NCBI GenBank assembly: GCA_026129405.1
Contig: JAHCID010000004.1
Location: 248,001-312,000, forward strand
Length of the DNA: 64,000 bases
From: a bacterium
GTDB lineage: Bacteria; Desulfobacterota; Binatia; DP-6
Direction: 5' to 3'
Below the pieces are notes generated by a model. That model ran no database searches. It was not told where the DNA came from and worked only from the letters and a program-made list of their open reading frames with translations. The position numbers and the translations under genes are program-made. Below are positions 50,473-60,542 of the stretch, piece by piece. Positions within the stretch are counted from its first letter, which is position 1. Each line of letters opens with the position of its first letter.

Positions 50473-50523
50473 GCCGCGGAGATGCACGCCCCGGCCGAAC
50501 GCGATAGAAGCGACCCGGCCGCG

Positions 50524-51498
50524 ATGTCCGGTACCGCCACTGCCCGCTCGAACGTGAACGTCGCCCTGGTGAAGTACTGGGGCAAGCGCGACGCCACGCT
50601 GAACCTGCCCGCCACGGGCAGCATCTCCGTCACGCTCGACGGCCTGTCGATCGACGCCCGGGTCGCGTTCGCCGCCGACGCCGACCGCTTCGTCATCGAC
50701 GGCGAGCCGGCCGCCGGCGAGGAGGCGGCGCGGCTCGCGCGCTTCCTCGACCTCGTACGCGGTCTCGGCGGCCGCACCGAGCCCGCGACGCTCGAGACGT
50801 GGAGCCGCGTGCCGCGCGGCGCCGGGCTGGCGTCGTCGGCGGCGGCGTTCGCGGCGCTCGCCCTCGCGGCCACGCGCGCGGCGGGGCTCGAGCTCGACGC
50901 GGCGGCGCTCTCGGCGCTGGCCCGGCGCGGCTCCGGCTCGGCGGCGCGCTCCATCCACGGCGGCTTCGTCGAGTGGCATCGCGGCACGCGCGACGACGGC
51001 CGCGACTCCGTCGCCGCGCCGTTGCTCGCGGCCGGCGCGTGGGACGTCCGCGTGGTCGTTGCGATCACGTCGACCGCGCCGAAGGCCGTGTCGTCGCGCG
51101 ACGGCATGGCGCGCGCGCAGGCGTCGCCGCTCTATCCCGCCTGGGTGACGGGCGCCGAGGCCGACCTCGCCGAGGCGCGCGCCGCCATCCGCGCGCGCGA
51201 TCTCGAGGCGCTCGGCGCGCTCGCCGAGCACAGCGCGCTCAAGATGCACGCGATCGGCCTCGCCGCGCGCCCGCCGCTCCTCTACTGGCGCGGCGCCACC
51301 GTCGAGTGCGTGCACCGCGTGTGGCAGCTGCGCGCGGACGGCGTGCGCGGCTGGGTCACGATCGACGCCGGGCCGCAGGTGAAGGTCCTCTGCGCCGCGG
51401 CCGATGCGGCCGCGATCGAAGCGGCGCTCGCCGCGGTGCCCGGCGTGGTGCGGACGCTCGCGTGTGCGCCCGGCGCCGGCGCGACGGTGCTCGCGTGA
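50524..51498 (+). CDS. mvaD: Diphosphomevalonate decarboxylase
   Basis: GHMP-fold enzyme of 324 residues converting mevalonate diphosphate to isopentenyl diphosphate with ATP. NVALVKYWGKRD at the start is the family signature; the phosphate loop is GAGLASSAAAFAALA, the conserved arginine is in SGSAARSIHGGF, and the catalytic aspartate is in TIDAGPQVK, so it should be a true decarboxylase rather than a 3-kinase. The ATG at 50524 fits the family; an earlier ATG at 50482 would add 14 unrelated residues. First gene of the coupled operon. Confidence 0.92.
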   Translation: MSGTATARSNVNVALVKYWGKRDATLNLPATGSISVTLDGLSIDARVAFAADADRFVIDGEPAAGEEAARLARFLDLVRGLGGRTEPATLETWSRVPRGAGLASSAAAFAALALAATRAAGLELDAAALSALARRGSGSAARSIHGGFVEWHRGTRDDGRDSVAAPLLAAGAWDVRVVVAITSTAPKAVSSRDGMARAQASPLYPAWVTGAEADLAEARAAIRARDLEALGALAEHSALKMHAIGLAARPPLLYWRGATVECVHRVWQLRADGVRGWVTIDAGPQVKVLCAAADAAAIEAALAAVPGVVRTLACAPGAGATVLA

Positions 51499-52451
51499 GC
51501 GTGACGGCGACCGCGCCCGGCAAGCTCTTCCTCACGGGCGAGTGGGCGGTGCTGCGCGGCGCGCCGGCGCTCGTCGCCGCGGTCGACCGCGAGGCCAGGG
51601 TCACGATCGCGCCGGCCGACGCCGGGATCACGGTCGTCTCGTGCGCCGAGGCGCGCACCGATCGCCTCGACGGGGCCGATCCCGACGCCCGCCCGAGCGG
51701 CGACGCGGCGGCGGTGCGCGCGGTGCTGCAGACGGTCGGCCGCGCCGGCCCGCTGCACGTCGCCGTCGACTCCGAGGCCTTTCTCGTCGGCACGCGCAAG
51801 CTCGGCCTCGGGCGCAGCGCGGCGACGCTCGTCGCCACCGTCGCCGCGCTCGGCCCCGACGCCGATCGCGACGCCTGGCTCGCCACGGCCCTGCGCGCGA
51901 ACGCGCGGCTCCAGGGCGGGCACGGCAGCGGCGGCGACGTCGCGGCGGCGGTCCACGGCGGTCTCATCGAGGTTCGCCGCGAGGGCGAGGGCCTCCGCGT
52001 CCACGCCCGCCGCCTGCCCGCGGGCCTGCACCTCGTCGCCGGCTGGACGGGGACGTCGGCGCACACACCGCCGCTGCTCGCACGCTTCTCGGCCGCCGAG
52101 CCGCCGGCGGCGCTGGCCGAGCTCGCGAAGGTCGCCGTCCGCGCTGCCGAGGCCGCCGAGCGCGGCGATCGCGACACGCTGCTCGACACGGTCGACCGCT
52201 CGGCGGCGCTGTTGACCCAGCTCGGCGCGTCCCTCGATCTACCCATCGTGACGCCGGCGCTCGCCACCCTGGTGCGCACCGCCAACCGGGCCGGCGCCGC
52301 GGCCAAGCCGTCCGGCGCCGGCGGCGGCGACTGCGGCATCGCCTTCGCCACCTCCGAACGGCAGGCGGCGGCCGTGCGTGCGGCCTGGGAAGACGCCGGC
52401 ATCCTGCCGCTCGACGTCGCCATTGCGCCCGCGGGGGCGGCCGTTGGCTGA
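51495..52451 (+). CDS. mvaK2: Phosphomevalonate kinase (GHMP)
   Basis: GHMP kinase of 318 residues. The start APGKLFLTGEWAVLRGAPALVAAV is the phosphomevalonate-kinase type; the ATP loop reads LGLGRSAATLVATV, with arginine in place of the usual serine, followed by QGGHGSGGDVAAAVHGGLI and KPSGAGGGDCGIA, which are specific to this branch. It phosphorylates mevalonate 5-phosphate. GTG start overlaps mvaD by four bases. Position next to mvaD supports the assignment. Confidence 0.85.
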   Translation: MSVTATAPGKLFLTGEWAVLRGAPALVAAVDREARVTIAPADAGITVVSCAEARTDRLDGADPDARPSGDAAAVRAVLQTVGRAGPLHVAVDSEAFLVGTRKLGLGRSAATLVATVAALGPDADRDAWLATALRANARLQGGHGSGGDVAAAVHGGLIEVRREGEGLRVHARRLPAGLHLVAGWTGTSAHTPPLLARFSAAEPPAALAELAKVAVRAAEAAERGDRDTLLDTVDRSAALLTQLGASLDLPIVTPALATLVRTANRAGAAAKPSGAGGGDCGIAFATSERQAAAVRAAWEDAGILPLDVAIAPAGAAVG

Positions 52452-53495
52452 GCCGATCAGCGAGCGCAAGCGCTCGCACCTCGACCTCTGCGCCGACGGC
52501 CCCGTCGAGCACGTGGGCAAGACGACGCTCTTCGAGGAGGTCGAGCTCGTCCACGACGCCCTCCCGGAGCTGGCCGTCGACGCGCTCGACGTGGCGACCA
52601 CGCTCGTCGGCCGGCCGCTGCGCGCGCCGCTCCTCATCACCGGCATGACCGGCGGTACGGCCGAGGCGGCCGTCGTGAACCGCGACCTCGCGCAGGTGGC
52701 CGAGGAGCACGGCATCGGCTTCGGCGTCGGCTCGCAGCGGGCGATGCACGTGCAGCCCGACCTCGCCGACACCTTCCGCGTGCGCGACCACGCGCCGACT
52801 GCGCTCGTCTTCGCGAACCTCGGCTCGGTGCAGGCGGCGTCGATGGCCACCGCCGAGATCGAAGGCCTCGTGCGCGCCGTCGACGCCGACGCGCTCTGCA
52901 TCCATCTGAACCCGGCGCAGGAGATGATCCAGCCCGGCGGCGACCGCGACTTCCGCGGCGGCCTCGACACCATCCGCCGCGTCGTCCGCGAGCTGCCGCT
53001 GCCGGTGGTCGTGAAGGAGACCGGCTGCGGCATCGCGCCGCGGGTGGCGGCGCGGCTCGCGGAGGCCGGCGTGCGCACCATCGACGTCTCGGGCGCGGGC
53101 GGCACCTCGTGGGTGAAGGTCGAGGCCCTGCGCGCCGACCCCGCGGGGGCGGCCCTCGGTCAGGAGTTCGCCGACTGGGGCATCCCGACCGCCGCGGCGC
53201 TCGCCGGCGTGCGCGGCCGCGGGCTCGAGGTGATCGCCAGCGGCGGCATCCGCAGCGGGCTCGACGTCGCCAAGGCGATCGCGCTCGGCGCCCGCGTCGC
53301 CGGCGTGGCGCTGCCCGTGTTCCGGGCCTACCGCGCGGGCGGCCTCGACGGCGCCCGCCACTACATCGATCGACTCGTCACCGGGCTTCGCACCGCGATG
53401 GTGCTGACCGGCTCGCCGGATCTCGACGCGCTCGGCCGTGCGCCCCTTGTGCTCGGCAGCCGGCTGCGCGATTGGGTCCCATCCGGAGGAGGGGC

Positions 53496-53499
<4 letters not shown>
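52444..53499 (+). CDS. fni: Isopentenyl-diphosphate isomerase, type II
   Basis: FMN/NADPH-dependent IPP-DMAPP isomerase of 351 residues, unrelated to the Nudix type I. Blocks: ERKRSHLDLC, LLITGMTGGT, GFGVGSQRA, the HLNPAQEMIQPGGDRDF segment with the catalytic glutamine, VVKETGCGI and ASGGIRSGLDVAKAIALGA. The start is a TTG at 52444, eight bases inside mvaK2. Type II isomerases usually accompany mevalonate genes in bacteria and archaea. Confidence 0.92.
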
Positions 53500-54775
<1,276 letters not shown>

Positions 54776-54776
<1 letters not shown>

Positions 54777-55690
54777 TGCGGACGCCGGCTCGCGGCCGCG
54801 CCGGCGGGAAGGTCATCCTCCTCGGAGAGCACGTCGTCGTGTACGGCCGCCCGGCCATCGCGACCGGCCTCCCCCTCGGGCTCGAGGCGGAGGTCTCGGC
54901 GGGCGACGGGCCGGCGCTCGCGAGCGAGCACGACGGCGATCCGCGCGGCGCCGACCTCGTGCGCGCCGCCTGTGCGGCGACGGGGCTCGATCCGGCGCGC
55001 GTCGTCGTCCGCGTGCGTTCGGAGCTGCCGCCGGGGCGCGGGCTCGGCAGCTCGGCCGCGCTCGCCGTCGCGACGCTGCGCGCCTGTGCGGCCGCGGCGG
55101 GACGCACGCTCTCGACCGACGAGGAGCTGGCGCTCGGCCGGCGGCTCGAGGGCGTCTTCCACGGCACGCCGTCGGGCATCGATCCCGCCGCCGCGGCGCT
55201 CGGGCGCTGCTTCGGCTTCGTGCGCGGCGAGCCGCCCGTCGTGACGCCGCTCGCGCCGCCCGCGCCATTGCCGCTCGTCGTCGCCTTCGGCGCCTGCCCG
55301 CGCGACACCGGTGCCGCGGTCGGCGGGCTGCGCGCGCGCTGGGACGCCGAGCCCGCGACCTACGAGGCGCTCTTCGACGCCGTCGCGGCCGTGGTCGCGC
55401 GCGGCGCCGAGGCGTTGCTGCGCGGCGACCTCACGGGCCTCGGCGCCGCCTTCGACGAGAACCAGACGCTGCTCGAGCGGCTCGGCGTCTCGAGCGACGA
55501 GATCGGCACGCTGGTCGCGACGGCGCGCCGCCTCGGCGCGCTCGGCGCCAAGCTGACCGGCGGCGGCGCGGGCGGCGCGATCATCGCGCTGGCGACCGAT
55601 CCCGAGACGCTCGCCGCGCGGCTCGCCGACGCCACCGGCGTGCAGGCGCTCGCGCTCCGCGTCGGCAGGGCACAGGAGGTGGCGGCATGA
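54776..55690 (+). CDS. mvk: Mevalonate kinase
   Basis: GHMP kinase of 304 residues converting mevalonate to its 5-phosphate. GKVILLGEHVVVYGRPAIA at the N-terminus, the ATP loop PPGRGLGSSAALAVA, FHGTPSGIDPAAAALG with the catalytic aspartate, and KLTGGGAGGAIIAL are the mevalonate-kinase-type blocks. It is next to mvaA and the cyclase gene, with one- and four-base overlaps, so its mRNA is coupled through the whole operon. Confidence 0.93.
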
Positions 55691-57612
55691 CGGTCCACGA
55701 GGCACAGCACGACGCCGGGCTGCGCTCCCGTGTCGAGGTCGCGATCGCGCGCGCGAAGGAGCGGCTGCTCGCGCTCCAGCAGTCGCGCGGGCACTGGCAG
55801 GGCGCCGTCGAAGCCGCGCCGAACCTCGAGGCCGAGTACGTCTTCGTGAACCGCCTCCTCGGCCGCGACCGTGCCGACGCCGACCGGTGCATGGCCGAGC
55901 GCCTGCTCGCGCTCCAGGGCGACGACGGCGGCTGGACGCTGGCGCCCGGCCTGCCGGGCCACCTCTCGACCTCGGTCGAGGCGTATCTCGCGCTGAAGCT
56001 CGCCGGCACGCCGGCCGACGCCGCGGCGCTCGGTCGCGCGCGCGAGTTCATCCGCGCGCAGGGCGGGCTCGCGCGCACCGGCGTACACACCCGCTTCTGG
56101 CTCGCGAGCTTCGGGCAGTGTCCGTGGTGGGCGGTGCCGGCGCTGCCGGTCGAGATGATCCTCCTGCCGCCGTGGGCGCCGCTGTCGATCTACGCGTTCT
56201 CGGCGTGGTCGCGCGCGATGCTGGTGCCGTTCTCGCTGCTCGTGCTCCAGCGGCCCGAGGTACGCCTCAATCCCGACGAGCGTGTCGACGAGCTGTGGCT
56301 GCGGCCGCCGACGCCCGGCGATCTGCGCATGCCGCGTTCGCCGTCGCTCCTCAGCAAGCGCAACTTCTTCCTCGCGCTCGACCGCTCGCTCGAGGCGCTC
56401 GGGCGCGTGCGCTGGAAGCCCCTGCGGCGGCGCGCGGTCGCGCGCGCGATCGAGTGGATTCTGCGCCATCAGGACTCGACCGGGCAGTGGGGGGGCATCC
56501 AGCCGGCGATGGTGCACGCGGTGCTGGCGCTGCATGCCGTCGGCTTCGCCAAGGACCACCCGGTCATGGTGCGCGGCATGCAGGGCATCGACGATCTCCT
56601 CGTCCAGCGCGGCGATCGGCTCGTCTGCCAGCCGTGTCTGGCGCCGACGTGGGACACCGCGCTCGCGCTGCGCGCGTTGCTCGACGCCGGTACGCCGCCG
56701 GAGCATCCGGCGCTCGCCCGCGCCGGCGAGTGGCTCTGCGCCGCGCAGATCTTCCGCCCCGGCGACTGGGCGGTGCGCCGGCCCGACCTCGATCCGGGCG
56801 GCTGGCCCTTCGAGCTCGCGAACGACCACTACCCGAACGTCGACGTCTCCGCGGTCGCCGCGCTCGGGCTCGTCGATCTGCCGCTGGCGACGGCGCCCGC
56901 CGGCCGCCGTGCGCTCGCCCGCGGCGTGCACTGGGTGAGCGGCCTGCAGAGCCGCTCGGGCGGCTGGGCGGCGTTCGACACCGTCGCCGAGGCGCCCGTG
57001 CTCGACGCCGTGCCCTTCCCCGACATGGAGGGCGTGGTCGACGCCGCCAGCGCCGACTCGACCGGTCACGTGCTCGAGCTGCTCGGCCGCATCGGCTTCG
57101 GCGCCGACTTCGGCCGCGTGCGGCGCGCGCTCGAGTTCCTGCGCACGACGCAGCAGCCGGACGGCAGCTGGAACGGCCGCTGGGGCGTCAACGCCGTGTG
57201 CGGCACGGCGCGGGCGCTGGTCGGGCTCGCCGCCGTCGGCGAGGAGCCGCAGGCCCCGTACGTGCGGCGCGCGGCCGCGTGGCTCGAAGCGCACCAGAAC
57301 GCGGACGGCAGCTGGGGCGAGTCGGTCGCGTCGTACGACGATCCTTCGCGGTGCGGCATCGGCGAGGGGACGCCGACGCAGACCGCCTGGGCGCTGCAGG
57401 GTCTCCTCGCCGTCGAGTCGCCGCGGCATCCTGCGATCCAGCGCGGTGTCGCGTGGCTCGTCGCCGCGCAGGGCGACGACGGCGGCTTCACCGAGACGCC
57501 GTACACCGGCACCGGCGTGCCGCGGCGGAGCTATCTGCGCTTCGAGCTGAATCCGCTCTCCTACGCCCTGCGTGCGCTCGGGCGCTTCCGGGCGGCGACG
57601 GAGACGGCGTGA
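55687..57612 (+). CDS. Squalene-hopene-cyclase family protein, altered catalytic motif
   Basis: A 641-residue double alpha-barrel triterpene-cyclase-family protein. QW repeats are clear (SRGHWQG, QDSTGQWG, QSRSGGWAAF, DGSWNGRW, ADGSWGE), and it aligns in length with known cyclases. The protonation motif normally D-x-D-D-T-A is N384-V385-D386-V387-S388-A389: two of three acidic residues and the threonine are replaced. The supporting D457 and H461 of A-D-S-T-G-H are kept, and the D386 to H461 distance is 75 as in Alicyclobacillus SHC. It may be inactive, slower, or use another substrate. No signal peptide. Sits after mvk in the operon. Confidence 0.85.
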   Translation: MTVHEAQHDAGLRSRVEVAIARAKERLLALQQSRGHWQGAVEAAPNLEAEYVFVNRLLGRDRADADRCMAERLLALQGDDGGWTLAPGLPGHLSTSVEAYLALKLAGTPADAAALGRAREFIRAQGGLARTGVHTRFWLASFGQCPWWAVPALPVEMILLPPWAPLSIYAFSAWSRAMLVPFSLLVLQRPEVRLNPDERVDELWLRPPTPGDLRMPRSPSLLSKRNFFLALDRSLEALGRVRWKPLRRRAVARAIEWILRHQDSTGQWGGIQPAMVHAVLALHAVGFAKDHPVMVRGMQGIDDLLVQRGDRLVCQPCLAPTWDTALALRALLDAGTPPEHPALARAGEWLCAAQIFRPGDWAVRRPDLDPGGWPFELANDHYPNVDVSAVAALGLVDLPLATAPAGRRALARGVHWVSGLQSRSGGWAAFDTVAEAPVLDAVPFPDMEGVVDAASADSTGHVLELLGRIGFGADFGRVRRALEFLRTTQQPDGSWNGRWGVNAVCGTARALVGLAAVGEEPQAPYVRRAAAWLEAHQNADGSWGESVASYDDPSRCGIGEGTPTQTAWALQGLLAVESPRHPAIQRGVAWLVAAQGDDGGFTETPYTGTGVPRRSYLRFELNPLSYALRALGRFRAATETA

Positions 57613-58752
57613 GCGCCGGCATCGCGCGCCTGGCGGTCTACGTGCCCGGCCACGCGCTCGACGTCGCGACGCTGGCGACGGCGCGCGGCGTGCCGGCGGC
57701 GGCGTGGACCGCGGCCCTCGGGCTCGAGACCGTCGCGGTGCCGGCGCCGTGCGAGGACGTGGTCACGCTCGCGGCGACCGCGCTGCTGCGCCTCGGCCAG
57801 GTCGAGCGGCTCGACGCGCCCGACGTCGGCCTCGTCGTCGCCGTGACCGGCGCGTCCGTCGCCGTGCCGGTCGCGGCGTCGCTAGCGATCGCCGGGCTCG
57901 ACGCGCGCGCGCGCGGGCTGGTCGACGTGCGGGGGGCGCGGGCGGGCGGTGCTCGCGGCGCTCCTTCGCGGCCAGTGGGTGCGGGCGGCGCGTGCGTTCC
58001 GGCGGCGCGCGCTCGTCGTCGCCGCGGACGTGGTGCCGCCGCAGCCGGCGCCGACGAGCCGCTCCGGGGCGCGGCCGGCGTCGCGGCGCTGATCGGGCCG
58101 GACCCGCTCGCGCTCCAGCTCGGCGAGAGCCGGCACCTGCACGGCCGGCGCGGCCGACGACGCCCTCGCCGGCGCGCTGCGTGCCTACCGGCCCGCCGAG
58201 CGGCCCGAGCCGGCGGGCGACGAGGTCGTCACCGATCGGCTCGCGCAGGTCTGCTGGGACCTGCCGACGCCGGCGGCGGTGCGCCGCGCGCACGCGCACC
58301 TCGTGGCGACCGACTGGCAGGACAACGCGCGGCGCTGGGCCGACGTCGGTCCGCGTTGCGACGCGGCCGCCGCGAGCGCGGTCGCCGAGCAGGTCGAGCC
58401 GACGCTGGCGACGGCGGCGCGCGTCGGGAACGCCGGCGCGGCGCAGCTGCTCCTCGCGGTGGCCGGGCTCCTCGAGCAGCAGGGGCGCCGGCTGGGGGGC
58501 CGTCGCATCGGGCTCGCCGCGGTCGACGGGGGCACGGCCGAGCTGGCGACCGGGCTCGTGCCGGCGCGCGTCGGCGACGTCTCGGCGCTCGGCCTCGACG
58601 CCGCGCTGCGCGCGCGGGTGCTGCTCGACGTCGCCGGCTACGAGGCGTTCGTCCGCGACGCCGGCCGGGGCGGCGCGGTGCCGCCCGGCTTCACGGGAGC
58701 CGTGACGCTCACCGTCGCCGACGGCCGCCGCCGCTATCATCGCGTGCCATGA
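57609..58752 (+). pseudogene. mvaS: HMG-CoA synthase-like gene, several frame breaks
   Basis: Homologous to bacterial HMG-CoA synthase along most of its length (start IARLAVYVPGHAL; ALVVAADV; EPLRGAAGVAALIG; PTLATAARVGN; LGGRRIGLAAVDGG; RRYHRVP end). The reading frame changes three times: inside the CG repeat near 57902-57914, near 58049, and near 58118-58134. The cysteine nucleophile is kept (WSTCGGRGRA in the second frame), but the acid glutamate aligns with a glycine (VTGAS) and the catalytic histidine with an aspartate (CWDLP). A loop before that is shorter by about 25 residues. Both ends still overlap neighbours correctly. Either decaying or misread sequence. Confidence 0.75.
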
Positions 58753-59624
58753 GCGTCGCGCCGGAGGTCGACGCGGCCTACGCCGCGTGCGCCCGGCTGG
58801 CCCGCGCGCACTACGAGAACTTCCCCGTCGGCTCGCTGCTGCTGCCGCGCCGGCTGCGCCGTGACCTCGCCGCGGTCTACGCCTTCGCGCGCATGGGCGA
58901 CGACGTGGCCGACGAGGAGCCGCAGCGGCCCGTCGCGGACCGGCTGGCGGAGCTGGACGGGCTCGAGGAGCGGCTGCTCGCGTGCGCCGCCGACCCCGAT
59001 GCCGTACGCGAGGCCGTCTTCCTGGCGCTCGGTCACACCATCGCCGCGCACCAGCTGCCGGTGCAGCCGTTCCGCGACCTCCTCACCGCCTTCCGGCGTG
59101 ACGCCGCCGGCGAGACGCGCACGCTGGCGACGTTCGCCGACGTCCTCGAGTACGCGCGCTGCTCGGCGAACCCGGTGGGGCGCATCGTCCTCGGCCTCTT
59201 CGGCCACCGTGACGCCGAGCGCCAGGCGCGGTCCGACGACGTCTGCACGGCGCTCCAGCTCACCAACTTCTGGCAGGACGTCGCCGGCGATCTCGACCGC
59301 GATCGCATCTATCTGCCGCAGGAGGACCTCGACCGCTTCCCGGGCAGCCGCGAGGCGCTGGCCGCGCGCGCCGCGACGCCGCCGTTCCGCGCCCTGCTCG
59401 GGTTCGAGATCGCACGCACCCGGGACCTGTTCGCGCGCGGCCTCGCGCTGGCGCGCATGGTCGACGGCCGTCTCCGCCGCGAGGTGCGCCTGTTCGCGCA
59501 CGGCGGCCTGGCGATCCTCGATCGCATCGCGGCGGTCGACTACGACGTCTTCGCACGCCGGCCGACGCTGCGCCGCCGCGACTTCGCCCGGCTCCTGCTG
59601 CGGCAGCTGTGGCCGGGGGCGTGA
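58749..59624 (+). CDS. hpnC: Squalene synthase HpnC (hydroxysqualene synthase)
   Basis: Trans-isoprenyl diphosphate synthase of 291 residues. HYENFPVGSLLLPRRLRRDLAAVYAFAR is the HpnC signature start, the first metal motif is MGDDVADE, and the second is LTNFWQDVAGD. HpnC converts presqualene diphosphate to hydroxysqualene in the HpnCDE route of many bacteria. HpnD and HpnE are not in this window, so the route would be split. The ATG overlaps the upstream stop by four bases, ending the coupled operon. Confidence 0.88.
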   Translation: MSVAPEVDAAYAACARLARAHYENFPVGSLLLPRRLRRDLAAVYAFARMGDDVADEEPQRPVADRLAELDGLEERLLACAADPDAVREAVFLALGHTIAAHQLPVQPFRDLLTAFRRDAAGETRTLATFADVLEYARCSANPVGRIVLGLFGHRDAERQARSDDVCTALQLTNFWQDVAGDLDRDRIYLPQEDLDRFPGSREALAARAATPPFRALLGFEIARTRDLFARGLALARMVDGRLRREVRLFAHGGLAILDRIAAVDYDVFARRPTLRRRDFARLLLRQLWPGA

Positions 59625-59627
59625 GGC

Positions 59628-60542
59628 TCAGCGCGGGACGCGTGCCCGCGCCACGTGGCCGATGCGTCCCGGCGTGAGCCCGTCACTGCGCCCGGCGCAC
59701 CACCGCGCCGCCAGCTCGCGGGGGCCGAGGTCCTCGACCAAGAAGAGGCCCACCGCCGCCAGCTCGCGCGCGAGCGTCGTCGGGTCGAAGCCGGAGACCC
59801 AGGGCTCGCCCGCCGCCGCCAGGCGCGCGCGCTGCGCCTCGAGCGCCGGCGGCCGGGCGTCGAGCACGCGCTGGTCGGTGTAGGTGAAGACGAGCTCGCT
59901 GCCGCCCGCCGCCGCGGTCGCGACGCCGCGGAGCGTGGCGAGGTTGGCGTCGCGCGGGAGGTAGATCGTGACGCCGAGCCAGGAGAAGAACGCCGGCACC
60001 GTCGCCGAGAAGCCGCAGCGGCCGAGCACGGCGGCGAGCGGCTCGCGGGCGAGGTCGGCGGCGACGAAGCGCACGTTCGCCGGCACGTCGGCGTCGCAGG
60101 CGGCGAGACGCTCGCGTTTCGCCGCCTGGGTCGCGGGATGATCGATCTCGAAGATGGCCAGCCCGCGCGCGAACCCGGGCTGGCGCACGCAGAAGCTGTC
60201 GAAGCCGGCGCCGACGAGGACGTACTGTCCGGCGCCGCGAGCGACGGCGTCGGCGAGCGCGTCCTCGGCGACGCGCGAGCGCAGGACGACGCCGCCGTAG
60301 GTCGGGTGGCGCGGCAGGGTGGCGTCGAGGATCGCGTCGACGTCGTCGAGGGCCGCGAGCCGGGCGTGGACGTCCGGGGTGGCGGCGTCGAGGATGCGGC
60401 GCGCGAGCTCGGCCTGCTCCTCGGCCGACACGAGCCGTGCGGCCCAGGGGTCGTCGACGAGCGGCGGCCGTGCCGTGCGCCGGTGCACGGCGCGCATGAG
60501 CGCGGCCACCAGCGCGGTGCGGCTCGCGCCGTCGCCGGTCAT
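59628..60542 (-). CDS. LCMT-like SAM methyltransferase
   Basis: A 304-residue class I methyltransferase of the leucine carboxymethyltransferase-like/TIGR00027 type. VLVGAGFDSFCVR is the SAM loop, FEIDHPATQAAKRERL the following acidic strand, and SWLGVTIYLPRD a family block. Such proteins are common in high-GC soil bacteria, and substrates are mostly unknown. The first residues are not a signal. It converges with hpnC with a three-base gap. Confidence 0.85.
   Translation of the reverse strand: MTGDGASRTALVAALMRAVHRRTARPPLVDDPWAARLVSAEEQAELARRILDAATPDVHARLAALDDVDAILDATLPRHPTYGGVVLRSRVAEDALADAVARGAGQYVLVGAGFDSFCVRQPGFARGLAIFEIDHPATQAAKRERLAACDADVPANVRFVAADLAREPLAAVLGRCGFSATVPAFFSWLGVTIYLPRDANLATLRGVATAAAGGSELVFTYTDQRVLDARPPALEAQRARLAAAGEPWVSGFDPTTLARELAAVGLFLVEDLGPRELAARWCAGRSDGLTPGRIGHVARARVPR

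Follow-up and report, generated by a model that had tools for sequence, protein, structure and literature searches.

The operon and its dead HMG-CoA synthase

The window, a 64,000-nucleotide stretch of one contig from a genome of the class Binatia, contains a forward-strand operon of mevalonate and hopanoid genes that includes a squalene-hopene cyclase (SHC) gene (Table 1). The operon order in genomes of the same family is MDC-PMK-IDI2-HMGR-MK-SHC-HMGS-HpnC-HpnD. The window keeps this order up to HpnC, after which HpnD is gone and a methyltransferase gene on the opposite strand comes next. The HMGS gene is a dead remnant, with frameshifts at 57957, about 58037-58046, and 58128 and changes in 47% of its conserved columns. 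These frameshifts could partly be sequencing errors, an explanation that does not easily cover the substitution of catalytic residues. The cyclase had been described in a preliminary description as part of an otherwise complete supply operon, a premise that fails at both HMGS and HpnD.

From the start of the dead HMGS, its reading frame continues stop-free until it joins that of HpnC (within ORF 55887-59624), and ribosomes starting in it would not terminate before HpnC. In other genomes, three operons with a canonical SHC also lack HMGS between SHC and HpnC (L090 in G005, L097 in G038, and L094 in G051); these genomes hold only distant HMGS-like genes in frames of about 480-490 aa with 32-37% identity, perhaps another HMGS type.

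TABLE 1 Coordinates of operon genes and cyclase features in the window
Feature	Position	Strand	Basis
Diphosphomevalonate decarboxylase (MDC)	50482..51498	+	TIGR01240, 242.9 bits, over cut-off; 72% identity to family orthologs
Phosphomevalonate kinase (PMK)	51495..52451	+	TIGR01220, 143 bits, below cut-off of 165.7; operon place as in relatives
Type 2 isopentenyl-diphosphate isomerase (IDI2), start uncertain	52378..53499	+	TIGR02151, 366 bits
HMG-CoA reductase (HMGR)	53496..54776	+	TIGR00532, 403.5 bits; 79% identity to family, not accelerated
Mevalonate kinase (MK)	54776..55690	+	TIGR00549, 200 bits; stop overlaps SHC start (ATGA)
AGGAGG, Shine-Dalgarno-like site for SHC	55674..55679	+	Read directly, 7 nt before ATG
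SHC, probable displaced native copy with altered active site	55687..57612	+	TIGR01507; pLDDT 90.5; TM 0.93/0.96 to AaSHC
NVDVSA, residues 384-389 (AaSHC D374N, D376 kept, D377V, T378S)	56836..56853	+	Alignment with AaSHC
D457, S458, H461 (AaSHC D447, V448, H451)	57055..57069	+	Alignment; all 82 other sequences have V or L at 448, and the class has Arg at 451
C505 replacing near-invariant Y495	57199..57201	+	Alignment
C-terminal pocket changes F601V, F605S, Y609F, Y612N (V611, S615, F619, N622)	57517..57552	+	Alignment
HMG-CoA synthase (HMGS), remnant	57609..58752	+	Three frameshifts; 22-residue deletion; catalytic Cys to Arg and His to Asp
HpnC (hydroxysqualene-forming step)	58749..59624	+	TIGR03464, 309.8 bits; only genome copy
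TIGR00027/LCM methyltransferase, at HpnD place of relatives	59628..60542	-	Profile match; synteny comparison

An intact cyclase with an altered acid motif

The SHC reading frame starts with ATG and runs for 641 codons without an internal stop, encoding 641 aa, and inspection of its 1926 nt for pseudogene marks found no frameshift, stop, or truncation. Alignment with the Alicyclobacillus SHC (AaSHC; 487 bits) spans the entire protein, and the match to the hopene-cyclase equivalog model TIGR01507, also full-length, scores 620.8 bits, with a cut-off of 431.1. An AlphaFold2 model, built from a 41-sequence alignment of canonical relatives, has the full SHC/class II double-barrel fold, and its closest structural match is AaSHC, followed by OSC at a TM of 0.85. 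The fold is predicted with high confidence, but such a model cannot show activity.

The AaSHC segment D374-V-D376-D377-T378-A aligns with N384-V385-D386-V387-S388-A389 of the window protein. The DxDD acid motif is thus absent and reads NVDV, and the middle aspartate (D376), the proton donor, is present as D386. Aspartate occupied 374, 376, and 377 in every homolog compared (75 SHC sequences at first, 82 later), including those from five of six same-family genomes. Most class relatives read DVDDSA, making serine common at 378. Of the described replacement of DxDDTA by NVDVSA, the motif itself and the unusual D374N and D377V therefore stand, and T378S turns out to be ordinary.

The same description held that D386, D457, and H461 keep the spacing of bacterial SHC, and these residues do align with D376, D447, and H451. 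H461 is nevertheless derived and newly acquired rather than ancestral, because class relatives carry Arg at 451, in most cases with Asn or Leu at 267; sequences from other groups pair His with Tyr. Among the 82 SHCs, the 267/451 pair was N/R in 41, L/R in 11, Y/H in 29, and W/H in 1; the His/His pair of the window protein was seen in none of them. The pair thus falls into two coupled states, Arg451 with Asn or Leu267 (52 sequences) and His451 with Tyr or Trp267 (30 sequences), and Arg stands in many SHCs at the position where textbooks give His451 as the partner of the catalytic acid. At position 448, all 82 SHCs carry Val or Leu, and the window protein carries Ser (S458); the aligned residue of human lanosterol synthase is the Cys of VECTS.

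The pocket is changed as well. The aromatic residues F601, F605, Y495, and Y612 are V, S, C, and N, and A170S and S309A are further departures from near-invariant residues, while W169, W312, F365, W489, Y606, L607, and Q262 are unchanged. With the SHC family (TIGR01507; AaSHC, PDB 1SQC, 2SQC, and 3SQC), the window protein therefore shares full-length homology, the predicted fold, the middle aspartate, D447, W169, W312, W489, and a gene place among isoprenoid genes; it differs from AaSHC in the flanking aspartates, the four replaced aromatics, and the His/His pair. The curated model is passed by about 190 bits despite the broken acid motif, and automatic annotation will label the protein a hopene cyclase.

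A conserved clade of homologs with the same NxDV motif had been suggested as something to look for. None was present in 148 genomes of the class, 88 of which have an SHC, or in 46 wider loci, and all SHC sequences inspected in that search were of the DxDD type. With the genus represented by one genome, NVDVSA is private to that genome, and a conserved NxDV clade was rejected.

A second operon carries a canonical cyclase

Contig C7 of the same assembly carries an operon ordered HMGR-SHC-HMGS-HpnD-HpnE-HpnH. Its SHC (G000:C7:164634-166499) belongs to the same protein family as the window copy, at 52% identity, with an intact, canonical DVDDSA motif and HMGS, HpnD, HpnE, and HpnH as operon neighbors. 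The only intact HMGS of the genome lies on C7 and the only HpnC lies in the window, so the two loci complement each other. A search of the genome for DXR found none, and the mevalonate pathway should therefore be its isoprenoid source. A third squalene/phytoene-synthase-like gene (G000:C6:269288-270088), 37% identical to HpnC, is possibly a phytoene synthase.

We considered whether C7 could be contamination and rejected this explanation. The composition distance of C7 to the window is 0.098, similar to that among the window's own quarters (0.075-0.112), with other genomes at distances of at least 0.134. A cell without C7 would have neither HMGS nor DXR; C7 is therefore necessarily part of the genome.

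The SHC tree puts the two cyclases in separate places. Support of 100 sets the window copy inside its own family (f1), where its end branch measures 0.87 compared to 0.04 to 0.30 for its f1 sisters. A branch of this length is a caution on tree placement; operon synteny agrees with the placement, and tree and operon place together show orthology with the family SHC. The C7 copy groups with another family (f6) with support of 99, and the C7 hopanoid locus therefore looks horizontally acquired. The window SHC is probably the native family copy, displaced by the C7 SHC. This pairing of a displaced native cyclase with its replacement is the strongest result of the analysis.

Changes gather in the active site

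Rates of change were compared by identity between window operon genes and five family genomes, with the sister genome G003 as a same-age reference. Identity of the window SHC to the family was 59%, where 72-73.5% was expected. Six other operon genes had identities like those of G003 (HMGR, 79%; HpnC, 72%; MDC, 72%; IDI2, 71%; MK, 65%; PMK, 59%). Acceleration is thus confined to SHC and HMGS, with SHC the only intact gene evolving fast.

Codon models gave a branch omega of 0.125 for the window SHC versus 0.061 elsewhere (likelihood ratio test [LRT], 6.0), rejected an omega of 1 (LRT, 67), and returned 0.10 in a six-taxon run; these omegas are rough and were down-weighted as evidence, since synonymous sites are near saturation and controls were erratic (MK, 0.50; PMK, unusable). 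The MK value was not distinct from 1 despite ordinary family identity, and is probably a model artifact.

More weight falls on where the changes lie. Columns were called conserved if conserved in at least 80% of relatives, and most of the 41 active-site columns were assigned from general background on SHCs, not from structure distances. The window SHC was changed at 13/41 conserved active-site columns compared to 21/161 elsewhere (P = 0.006), where G003 was changed at 0/41 and 12/161. Limiting the active site to positions named explicitly in individual papers gave 5/10 versus 29/192 (P = 0.014). Expressed as excess change over G003, conserved active-site columns scored 0.32 (confidence interval, 0.17 to 0.46), other conserved columns 0.06 (-0.01 to 0.13), and variable columns 0.25. 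Conserved structural positions therefore appear to be still protected, and conserved catalytic positions not. Active-site columns changing at roughly the rate of variable columns indicate loosened constraint rather than positive selection for a new role. Changes gathered in the active site, together with an omega well below 1, would thus mean that constraint was lifted from hopene synthesis and retained on the fold. Counting against this reading, a coarser split, with conservation judged from three outgroup genomes only, left the excess almost even across the protein (0.20 versus 0.15), the pattern expected of relaxed drift.

Under such drift the gene would simply be dying, redundant and unselected since C7 came, its frame still open only through the scarcity of stop codons in GC-rich DNA and the short time elapsed. 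The neighboring HMGS is already dead, HpnD is lost, and the change is private to one genome, all as expected of decay. An open frame is weak proof of function and was rejected as such, since the broken HMGS is also without an in-frame stop after frameshift correction, and neutral simulation gave a probability of 0.03 to 0.33 of no stop. What makes a dying gene unlikely in our judgment is that neutral drift should strike conserved structural and variable columns equally (0.06 versus 0.25 observed), that an omega of 1 was rejected, and that the 1926 nt of SHC are free of indel frameshifts, against three in about 1140 nt of HMGS, where conserved columns are also far more altered.

Sequencing or assembly error is scarcely credible as the source of these changes, even with one genome representing the genus. 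Chance or error would hardly have changed 13 of 41 conserved active-site columns together in an open frame; the assembly comprises 15 contigs and is 100% complete with 0.35% contamination, and the damage to HMGS includes catalytic-residue substitutions besides indels. The preliminary description had said that DxDD in all close relatives would point to a private mutation or error: relatives do have DxDD and the change is private to the genus, yet so many concerted changes leave error improbable. Its proposal, that selection may favor another function with weak protonation or none, is partly supported. The intact gene, an omega of about 0.1, near-normal change at conserved positions outside the active site, and the concentration of changes within it are in keeping with the proposal; its operon premise fell, and because a second, canonical SHC makes the window copy redundant, the old function could as naturally have been lost as a new one gained.

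Chemistry expected of a single-acid cyclase

Of the DxDD residues, the middle Asp supplies the proton, and OSC conserves it too (PMC9290348, PMC11795633). Cooperation among the residues of the motif has been demonstrated for a diterpene cyclase, using an epoxide analogue that is protonated more readily (PMC11795633). In AaSHC, the D377C mutation leads to monocyclic 3-deoxyachilleol with strongly reduced activity (PMC6127371), and the range of substrates and products shifts when F601 and F605 are changed (PMC11165016). The window protein resembles the D377C laboratory mutant in losing the last aspartate of DxDD and keeping the middle one; the mutant carries one engineered change and has a known product, 3-deoxyachilleol, whereas the window protein carries many natural changes.

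These precedents bear on whether the protein could be a normal hopene synthase that tolerates NVDVSA. Its TIGR01507 score, its D376 equivalent, and the seven unchanged pocket residues are what such an enzyme would have. That D374 and D377 are present in every inspected relative, that D377C diverts AaSHC to a monocyclic product, and that F601 and F605 are also lost make normal hopene synthesis very improbable.

An OSC-like catalyst is a second possibility, in which a more easily protonated, epoxide-like substrate would make the middle Asp sufficient. OSC (human lanosterol synthase, PDB 1W6K) itself retains only that Asp, in V-S-D-C-T-A (PMC11795633). Like the window protein, it pairs a single catalytic Asp with non-acidic neighbors and has a polar residue at the VECTS Cys position, where all 82 SHCs have V or L. 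Against this, the window protein is clearly an SHC by sequence and tree, its TM to OSC is below that to SHC, and it scored 253 bits against the OSC model TIGR03463 (cut-off, 851), hardly different from the canonical C7 copy at 255. A search of the genome for squalene epoxidase (PF08491), with positive controls, returned no match. Use of an epoxide in the manner of OSC was rejected as unlikely, and we regard an OSC-like catalyst as improbable, if less so than normal hopene synthesis.

The best explanation, and one we hold to be reasonably probable, is that the native SHC was displaced by the acquired C7 operon and that its active site diverged while the fold remained under purifying selection. 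The C7 operon would have arrived horizontally, bringing a canonical SHC and HMGS, and the native copy would have been displaced and freed from hopene making. Its active site would then have diverged, with the cyclase fold still selected. Displacement with loss of efficient hopene making is the part of this explanation held with high confidence. That the protein performs a real altered cyclase chemistry is a possibility to which we give rather less than even odds.

The window SHC may be a weak cyclase with a single acid that terminates early or takes another substrate, or it may be inactive. Because D386 is the sole acid remaining of the DxDD trio, protonation of the unactivated squalene end would be weak. 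Opening of the pocket by F601V and F605S, together with loss of D377, should lead to an early mono- or bicyclic stop, or to use of another polyprenoid, rather than to hopene, if there is any product. Our specific proposal, more tentative than altered chemistry in general, is a natural triterpene cyclase that relies on its middle Asp as the sole acid (D386, with H461 and S458 assisting) in an opened pocket, yielding an early-terminated or otherwise non-hopanoid polyprenoid product, with the hopene job taken over by the acquired SHC.

Implications

Since a broken acid motif still passes a curated cut-off, genome-based hopanoid predictions and SHC copy counts can mislead. Mutants that lack the flanking DxDD aspartates are known from the laboratory. 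A full-length SHC that lacks them in nature, beside a canonical replacement in the same genome, would, if true, offer a natural test of which proton-relay parts are required and of the fate of displaced cyclases.
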